From an uncultured Verrucomicrobiales bacterium (GTDB taxonomy: Bacteria > Verrucomicrobiota > Verrucomicrobiia > Verrucomicrobiales > Akkermansiaceae), in contig CALGZA010000031.1 in the NCBI GenBank assembly GCA_937934595.1, forward strand, positions 1 to 64,000: a stretch of 64,000 nucleotides of DNA, written 5' to 3'. This document shows positions 22,705-39,959 of this stretch, in pieces (positions within the stretch are counted from its first letter, which is position 1; each line of letters opens with the position of its first letter). A program made the position numbers and the translations under genes. The notes under the pieces are model-generated. The model saw only the letters and a program-made list of their open reading frames with translations. It had not been told where the DNA came from and ran no database searches.

Positions 22705-23532
22705 ATGTTTCTTCAAAATACATTTAATACTATCGCCTTTTCACCGGCTGAGTGGATGGGACTACCTAAAAATTACTCTGCTCATGGAGATTCAGTGGGT
22801 CATATGATAGATGTTGTGACGTGGTTCATGATTGCACTATTTGTTGGTTGGACTTTATTCTTTTTATATTCGTTGTTTCGTTTTTGGCATAAGAAGAATC
22901 CTGAGGCGTCCTATTATGGTGTTAAGAGTCATCTTTCTACGCATTTGGAGGTGGGAGTTATTATTGTTGAGGCGGTATTATTACTGGGTTTTGCTTTACC
23001 TTTATGGAGTAAGAGGACCGATACTTTTGAGCAGGTGCTAAAGGAGAATCCTGTTCGTGTAAGGGCTATAGGTTTTCAGTTTAACTGGAAGTTTCACTAT
23101 GCGGGAGAAGATGGGAAGTTTGGTTATATTGACCGATCATTAGTGTCTGCACCTGGGGATCCTTGTATTGTGCCTGAAGATCCGAATGGGTGGGATGATT
23201 TTGTGACTGAGAAATTAAGGATACCTGTGGGTAAGCCAGTGATTCTTCAGGTGACGTCCACTGATGTGATACATAACTTCTCGATAATACCTATGCGTAT
23301 TCAGTCTGATGCTTTTCCTGATAAGGATATACCGATGTGGTTTACACCGCTGGAGGAGATGGAGACATCTGTGGTCTGTGGTCAGCTCTGCGGTTTAGGA
23401 CATGCTAATATGGTGTCTACATTGGTTGTGGAGTCAGAGAAAAGCTTTAATGAGTTTAGTAAGCAAAGAAGTGATGAGTCTAAGGCGGAGTCAAAGAAGC
23501 TGCATGGAGAAAAGGTAGCTGTGGCTGAGTGA
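22705..23532 (+). CDS. coxB: Cytochrome c oxidase subunit II with CuA site
   Basis: The 275-residue product has two N-terminal membrane helices and a periplasmic cupredoxin domain. The CuA ligands are visible: the His of DVIHNFSI and CGQLCGLGHANM (CxxxCxxxHxxM). The aromatic path residues are in FQFNWKFHY. There is no fused cytochrome c domain, so electrons must come from a separate cytochrome, possibly those encoded upstream. The gene sits last, after coxA, coxC and coxD, whereas coxB commonly precedes coxA. Confidence 0.94.
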   Translation: MFLQNTFNTIAFSPAEWMGLPKNYSAHGDSVGHMIDVVTWFMIALFVGWTLFFLYSLFRFWHKKNPEASYYGVKSHLSTHLEVGVIIVEAVLLLGFALPLWSKRTDTFEQVLKENPVRVRAIGFQFNWKFHYAGEDGKFGYIDRSLVSAPGDPCIVPEDPNGWDDFVTEKLRIPVGKPVILQVTSTDVIHNFSIIPMRIQSDAFPDKDIPMWFTPLEEMETSVVCGQLCGLGHANMVSTLVVESEKSFNEFSKQRSDESKAESKKLHGEKVAVAE

Positions 23533-25297: not shown

Positions 25298-26035
25298 CTA
25301 CTTTTCAGATAGTTCTTTTATTTTGACGAAGCAGGCGTTGGATCCAGAGGCAATGATTTTGCCTTCTTTATCGATGAGGTTGTATTCTGGTACAAATTTG
25401 GTTTTTTTGAATTGGCGTAGTTTTGAATTTTCTACTTTTTCTGGAAGAATGTGGTACCATGGGAGCTTGGCTTTAGCAGCCCAATTTTCTGCTGCATCTT
25501 TGCTTCTGTCTAGTGAGACTTGGAGCATTACTGTGTTGGAACTGTCTGCCAAGAGTTTGTTGTATTTGGCCACTAACTGTGGAGCACCGCTACGACAAGG
25601 TCCTCACCATGAAGCTGAAAAATAGAGCAGGTAATACTCTGGGATGAATTGGAATTCAGCTTTTTTAAGTTTGCTGCCTTTAAGTTGAGTGAGATTTTTA
25701 TAAATGTTTTTAGCAATGGGTTGTTCTTCTAGAGTATCCCCAATGTTTGCCTTAGCTTTTTCTTTTTCCTCGGCTTTCTTTTTTTCTTCCTCTTCTTTGG
25801 CTTTAGTGGCGATCCAGTCTTTGTCTGCTTGAGAGAGCATGTCTATTTTAAAGGTTGTTTTACGTCCATTGCTGCGGGCGATGGTGACTTTTTTGCTGTC
25901 TGCATCGTAATTCTGGTATGTACCTCTGAATGTTTTACTTTTGTCGCTATTGCTCCACATACGGGCACATAGTTTTGTGGATAGCAGGCTGGCAACACAA
26001 AGTGAGGTGAATAATGTTTTTCTTAATAGGTTCAT
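25298..26035 (-). CDS. SHD1 plus thioredoxin-like probable selenoprotein (UxxC)
   Basis: Read through the in-frame TGA at 25604-25606, the gene encodes 245 residues: a signal peptide (about 1-24), an SHD1-like domain (MWSNSDKSKTFRGTYQNYD ... LSQADKDWI), a Lys/Glu-rich helix and a thioredoxin fold. The TGA falls exactly at the first active-site cysteine: FSASW-(TGA)-GPCRSGAPQL, giving Sec144 and Cys147. After the TGA the frame continues as good thioredoxin-like sequence with the cis-Pro loop KFVPEYNLIDKEGK. The gene at 39393-39959 has the same TGA position. I therefore read it as selenocysteine, not as two separate genes or a pseudogene. It would be a periplasmic redox protein. Confidence 0.78.
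25570..25582 (-). promoter_or_regulatory. SECIS-like hairpin downstream of the TGA codon
   Basis: The mRNA has CCAC-AGUUA-GUGG, a 4-bp stem with a 5-base loop. The loop begins 26 bases after the TGA. A further GG/CC pairing is possible across a 4-base bulge. The second TGA-containing gene has the same loop at the same distance. Bacterial SECIS elements lie at this kind of distance and have a GU in the loop. The shared Gln-Leu-Val codons could also explain part of the match. Confidence 0.45.
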
Positions 26036-39392: not shown

Positions 39393-39959
39393 TTATTTCT
39401 TCGTTAGATCTTCGAATTTTTTGATTAGGCTATTTGGTTCTCCACGCATCATTTCTTTACCTTCTTTGTCAATGAGTATGTAGGTGGGTACAAATTGGGT
39501 TTTGATGTCCTTGATGAATGTTTTGGCGATGTCTGACTTCATTAGCGTGGGCCATGGTAATGTTTCTTTTTTTGCCCATGCTGTTGCTTCGGTGACTGTG
39601 TTATCGAAGCTGACTTGAATAAGTTCTAGGTTATCTAGTTTAGTAAATTCTTTGTTATATTTTACCACTAACTGTGATATTGATTGACGGCAGGGTGGTC
39701 ACCAGCTTGCTGTGAAGTAGAGTATGAAGTAGTCTGGATTTCCTTTGATTTCGGTTTCGCTGTATTTTGTCCCGTCGAATTTTTTGATGACTGGAGCGAT
39801 GCTTTTGATTACTTTTGATTTGGCGTTTTGCTCTTTTTCTGTTGTTGATGTTTCATCAACAGCGGCCTGGACTATTTTTTGAGGAGTCTCAGTTTTGTCT
39901 TGTGCGGTTACTGACATCGTGAGTGATGCTGTAATGAGCGCGAGTATTTTATATTTCAT
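39393..39959 (-). CDS. Thioredoxin-like probable selenoprotein (UxxC)
   Basis: Read through the in-frame TGA at 39699-39701, the gene encodes 188 residues: a signal peptide (MKYKILALITASLTMSVTA), a Lys/Thr-rich linker and a thioredoxin-like domain. The TGA takes the place of the first active-site cysteine, FTASW-(TGA)-PPCRQSISQL, giving Sec87 and Cys90. The frame continues for 101 more residues with the cis-Pro loop QFVPTYILIDKEGK. It is a paralogue of the C-terminal half of the gene at 25298-26035 and lacks the SHD1 domain. Normal stop TAA and a terminator follow, so it is not a decayed gene. Selenocysteine is inferred. Confidence 0.78.
39663..39679 (-). promoter_or_regulatory. SECIS-like hairpin downstream of the TGA codon
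   Basis: The mRNA has UAUCAC-AGUUA-GUGGUA, a 6-bp stem (one U-G pair) with the loop starting 26 bases after the TGA. Loop sequence and distance equal those in the gene at 25298-26035, while the stem bases partly differ and still pair. Confidence 0.45.

Follow-up and report, generated by a model that had tools for sequence, protein, structure and literature searches.

The gene at 25298-26035 raises the question of whether a TGA codon inside an otherwise open frame is a stop, a defect, or a codon for selenocysteine (Sec). We examined it within the window (the whole stretch of 64,000 nucleotides that was analysed) and across related genomes. It is almost certainly a genuine selenoprotein gene, in which UGA would be decoded as Sec via a bSECIS hairpin to give an exported thiol-disulfide oxidoreductase. 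At the level of sequence, this reading is supported by the reading frame, by a complete set of Sec machinery, and by a UGA and a hairpin that are both conserved, the hairpin also with covariation. Sec insertion, export and a catalytic role are what we infer, as are a substrate and an electron donor.

Reading frame and predicted product

The gene lies on the minus strand, a point absent from the earlier note; the plus-strand frame at 25298-26035 is closed. Read from 26035 to 25298, the frame comprises 143 codons, a TGA (25604-25606), 101 further codons and a TAG, and the junction around the in-frame TGA is FSASW-TGA-GPCRSGAPQL. The TGA thus stands, as had been claimed, at the first Cys of a WCGPC motif (W-UGA-GPC) with intact coding on both sides. 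A scan of the 64-kb window found 29 TGAs flanked by at least 40 open codons on each side, and the motif W-TGA-x-P-C occurs at only two of them, 25604-25606 and 39699-39701. Homologues are alignable with the product over its whole length, at 37-46% identity. The features of the two genes are as follows.

25298-26035, minus strand: full-length gene for a predicted selenoprotein of 245 aa that includes Sec144, ending with TAG at 25298-25300 (open-frame reading; alignment of full-length homologues)
25964-26035, minus strand: predicted signal peptide, about residues 1-24 (hydrophobic N-terminus in full-length homologues, then conserved A-R-x-W; read by eye)
25817-25963, minus strand: SHD1-like small beta domain, about residues 25-73 (PF03983 in 9 of 40 members; beta strands in the model at 25-29, 35-44, 49-54 and 59-63)
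25301-25690, minus strand: TlpA/tryparedoxin-like thioredoxin domain, residues 116-245, with U144-G-P-C147 (PF13905; Foldseek)
25604-25606, minus strand: UGA codon, predicted to be read as Sec, first residue of the WUGPC active site (aligned at one column in all 58 distinct Sec-form sites; TGC/TGT in Cys homologues)
25568-25584, minus strand: putative bSECIS hairpin, loop AGUUA (CCAC/GUGG pairs, 25570-25582; loop starts 25 nt past the UGA; comparative covariation)
39393-39959, minus strand: another predicted selenoprotein gene from this family, encoding 188 aa, with its TGA at 39699-39701 (FTASWUPPCRQS) and without an SHD1 domain
39663-39679, minus strand: putative SECIS hairpin belonging to the second gene, UAUCAC-AGUUA-GUGGUA (stem of six pairs, with compensatory departures from the family consensus)

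The product matches PF13905 (Thioredoxin_8) at 9.7e-14 (51.9 bits, against a gathering score of 27), and the CxxC motif is present as UxxC. The AlphaFold model has a thioredoxin fold (mean pLDDT 92), for which the best Foldseek matches are the thiol-disulfide oxidoreductase 4grf, 4fyu and tryparedoxins (about 1e-7). The SHD1 label given previously holds for the family, in which 9 of 40 members match PF03983 (best 2.2e-9), although the product of this copy does not reach an E-value of 1 against PF03983 in Pfam. The window neighbours of the gene do not recur beside its homologues, and synteny gives no hint of function. From the predicted fold and the motif, we take the product to be, most probably, a thiol-disulfide oxidoreductase that is exported and in which Sec144 would be the nucleophile and Cys147 the resolving residue.

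The following sequence of events may be envisaged. During translation, SelB and tRNA-Sec would decode the UGA at 25604-25606 as Sec, directed by the short bSECIS hairpin whose AGUUA loop starts 25 nt downstream. In the exported product, the SHD1-like domain would be followed by the thioredoxin domain and its Sec-Gly-Pro-Cys active site. Sec144 would attack and Cys147 resolve, and disulfides in the cell envelope would be reduced or exchanged.

Recoding could instead serve mainly as a selenium-dependent switch, with the truncated SHD1 protein functional at low selenium. Decoding at bSECIS elements is generally incomplete, and termination at the UGA would leave an exported protein of 143 aa with, as predicted, the whole SHD1-like domain. 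However, truncation removes everything past the first thioredoxin strand of the model and would leave an unfolded tail, and the gene at 39393-39959 carries the TGA yet lacks an SHD1 domain. We consider a switch improbable. To read the stretch as two separate genes, one for an SHD1 protein of 143 aa and one, from a GTG start further downstream, for a protein of 91-101 aa, is highly improbable. The earlier note had expected the usual gene finder to split the gene, and a mechanical ORF finder does give two frames. This reading was rejected because the break would lie within the modelled thioredoxin fold, between its first strand (134-140) and the active-site helix (145-161), and because Cys homologues are single continuous chains across the same span; the downstream start also loses the active-site motif.

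Conservation of the UGA codon and selenocysteine machinery

Of the family's 145 genomes, 138 have a homologue. In 59 of the 145, a homologue carries a TGA in frame, and others are without the stop. Among the relatives that have the TGA gene are the cultured Rubritalea marina and Rubritalea profundi. In a first set of sites, which were read directly, the first residue of the active-site motif is TGA at 34 non-identical sites. A second, named set holds 54 TGA sites at the same motif position beside 29 Cys sites, and is biased towards SHD1-bearing members since it was gathered partly by a peptide pattern from the SHD1 region. At all 58 distinct sites read, the TGA occupies the first residue of the active-site motif, W-U-x-x-C. 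The Cys homologues that had been proposed as a check were found, with TGC or TGT at the TGA position. A few further Sec sites have the variant motifs WUGGC or STUGPC; for example, the active site is W-U-G-G-C rather than W-U-x-P-C in L089, L093 and L094.

A pseudogene or sequencing error, in which TGC or TGT became TGA and the gene was broken, would need one substitution only, and a lone in-frame TGA usually means a broken gene. We rejected this explanation, to which we give almost no weight, as refuted in practice by the conservation of the TGA: dozens of divergent homologues, at 37-46% identity, share the codon and have frames intact on both sides, the second copy in the window also has it, and the downstream half is under protein-level constraint.

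The earlier note had also proposed a search for selA, selB, selC and selD, and all four are present in the same genome. The tRNA-Sec (selC) scores 57 bits, above the Rfam cut-off, and ARAGORN calls the UCA-anticodon tRNA of the assembly as tRNA-SeC(tca). Matches for selA (510 bits), selB (301 bits) and selD (375 bits) are each above the NCBIfam cut-off. The selD gene (L018:1486-2526, contig C6) has one in-frame TGA at the usual Sec site, SCGG-U-ASKLD, and downstream of it a hairpin of 7 bp (loop AGUUC, -9.8 kcal/mol); selD itself is thus a predicted selenoprotein gene. A profile search of the genome with PF13905 and PF00578 returned the two window genes as the only TGA-bearing genes.

Across the family, selA was identified in 54 of the 59 genomes with the TGA form, versus 11 of the 86 others (Fisher P ~1e-22). 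Among the five TGA genomes without selA, two (G060 and G105) have tRNA-Sec above the cut-off and the rest are three MAGs that are 83-86% complete. Matches to tRNA-Sec in Cys-only genomes score 44-49 bits, under or barely over the cut-off, and were taken as other long-arm tRNAs. One such match (G107:C1:520752-520835), at 48.7 bits, only just exceeds the cut-off; the genome has a Cys form as its best homologue, and the match is probably another long-arm tRNA.

General readthrough or a changed code, with UGA read as, e.g., Trp or Gly, might be suspected since only 3 of the window's 36 long frames end in TGA. Nevertheless, TGA is a real stop here, as had been stated, and it terminates the gene for cytochrome oxidase subunit II (22705-23532); the code is therefore standard and we rejected this reading. 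In addition, the in-frame TGA occurs only at the position of the catalytic Cys and with a specific hairpin, TGA forms are essentially confined to genomes with Sec machinery, and the UCA-anticodon tRNA carries the ARAGORN label tRNA-SeC, which together make a changed code or readthrough scarcely credible.

The SECIS hairpin

The hairpin previously placed just downstream of the TGA is real, at 25568-25584, though short in this gene: CCAC-AGUUA-GUGG, with four consecutive pairs and about -3.4 to -3.9 kcal/mol. Its weak energy results from the loss, in this copy, of the outer pairs seen in the family stem (U.C at 25583/25569). The case for its being real comes from comparison among relatives and not from its energy. 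A published bSECIS model has, as a search criterion, a minimum free energy of -7.5 kcal/mol or lower, which a subset of selenoprotein genes fails (PMC13188914). Neither this copy (about -3.9 kcal/mol) nor the second window gene (-4.6 kcal/mol) reaches that value; the consensus hairpin of the relatives is at -11.2 kcal/mol. The bSECIS geometry described in the same paper is present, with a 5-nt loop (AGUUA) in which G is second and U next, a 4-bp stem and 25-nt spacing.

In 58 distinct Sec-form sequences, the family hairpin has the consensus CUCCAC-AGUU(R/U)-GUGGAG at a fixed distance, its loop starting 25 nt after the UGA. RNAalifold returned no pairs on the alignment of these 58 sequences; pairing was assessed by an explicit pair count with shuffled and slid controls. 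Paired bases fill 89% of the hairpin cells and four of the six pairs have changes on both sides (compensatory), in counts that, like the codon counts below, treat related sequences as separate observations although the tree makes them not fully independent. The covariation score is 0.132, versus 0.055 when shuffled, and none of 500 shuffles scored as high. When partners were slid, pairing was lost and all scores were lower. The A, the G and the second U of the loop are invariant. In the second window gene, the outer three of the six stem pairs (UAUCAC/GUGGUA) differ from the family consensus and still pair.

Codon usage within the hairpin gives a further line of evidence. The Leu codon is TTA or TTG in 49 of 49 Sec forms versus 2 of 22 Cys forms, and Leu is encoded by TTR in 16% of codons in the rest of the Sec genes. 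The Gln codon is CAG in all 56 Sec forms and the Val codon GTG in all 47. This shows a synonymous codon choice (CAG, TTR, GTG) that the hairpin would force on the Sec forms. The Cys homologues are without the SECIS hairpin, also those that look like reversions from Sec.

Apparent Sec-to-Cys changes and relation to known selenoproteins

In a quickly built tree of 86 sequences, four state changes suffice for the Sec forms, versus a shuffled mean of 24.6. Seven Cys forms (L071, L072, L101, L110, L111, L115 and L118), including those of Akkermansia, are nested among the Sec forms, and their codons no longer permit the SECIS hairpin. Because Cys forms lie among Sec forms and have lost the hairpin codons, Sec-to-Cys reversion is suggested, with a direction that depends on the rooting of a tree in which many forks are weakly supported. 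The Akkermansia SHD1-thioredoxin homologues (L110, L111 and L118) share the domain architecture of the window gene at about 28% identity and lie within the Sec clade, but they have TGC at the site and lack the SECIS codons. No Akkermansia-like genomes are among the selA-positive genomes.

Selenoproteins with a UxxC motif and TlpA-like or thioredoxin folds are already known (PMC13188914, table; PMC1088965). The TlpA-like or "Thiol-disulfide isomerase-like" selenoproteins (cd02966, UxxC) are listed in Table 1 of PMC13188914 and first came from the Sargasso Sea set (PMC1088965). They share with the family described here a fold of the TlpA/Thioredoxin_8 kind, Sec as the first residue of UxxC, and a bacterial and marine origin. 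Our family, a Verrucomicrobiota clade, is set apart from them by the N-terminal SHD1-like domain and the signal peptide, as judged from their descriptions, which mention no SHD1. The Sec-containing thioredoxins (PF00085, UxxC) have the W-U-G-P-C active site in common with the window gene, whose best Pfam match is however PF13905 rather than PF00085, and which scores 21.5 against the NCBIfam thioredoxin cut-off of 96.8. ResA, StoA, DsbE and tryparedoxins are alike in predicted fold and active-site position, but have Cys instead of Sec; the NCBIfam cut-offs for ResA, StoA and DsbE are not reached by the product. Against named NCBIfam selenoprotein families (e.g., TsoB, TUGYCR redoxin and SelL-related), the best scores are 12-19 bits versus cut-offs of 100-805.

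We found no description of this Verrucomicrobiota SHD1-thioredoxin family in the open-access papers searched, and we file the family as a new subfamily of the known UxxC thioredoxin-fold selenoproteins. On balance we favor a broader view, in which exported SHD1-thioredoxin selenoproteins, encoded by single genes and tandem arrays, would make up a large and uncatalogued family and a main part of the marine Verrucomicrobiota selenoproteome. Such genes would use a simplified, lineage-specific SECIS (an AGUU loop shared with selD, and stems down to 4 bp) and would have undergone repeated Sec-to-Cys reversions that erased it.

The use of Sec in Verrucomicrobiota is hardly described, and standard gene finders would split or drop genes of this kind. 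The family is widespread in Akkermansiaceae/Rubritalea/Roseibacillus genomes and so adds a sizeable group of predicted selenoproteins. It also offers a clean record, in nature, of how Sec is switched to Cys and the SECIS gained or lost, and its very short bSECIS should be useful for defining the real requirements of SelB. In Roseibacillus-like genomes (L049/L080, L070 and L076), two or three Sec paralogues stand in tandem arrays.
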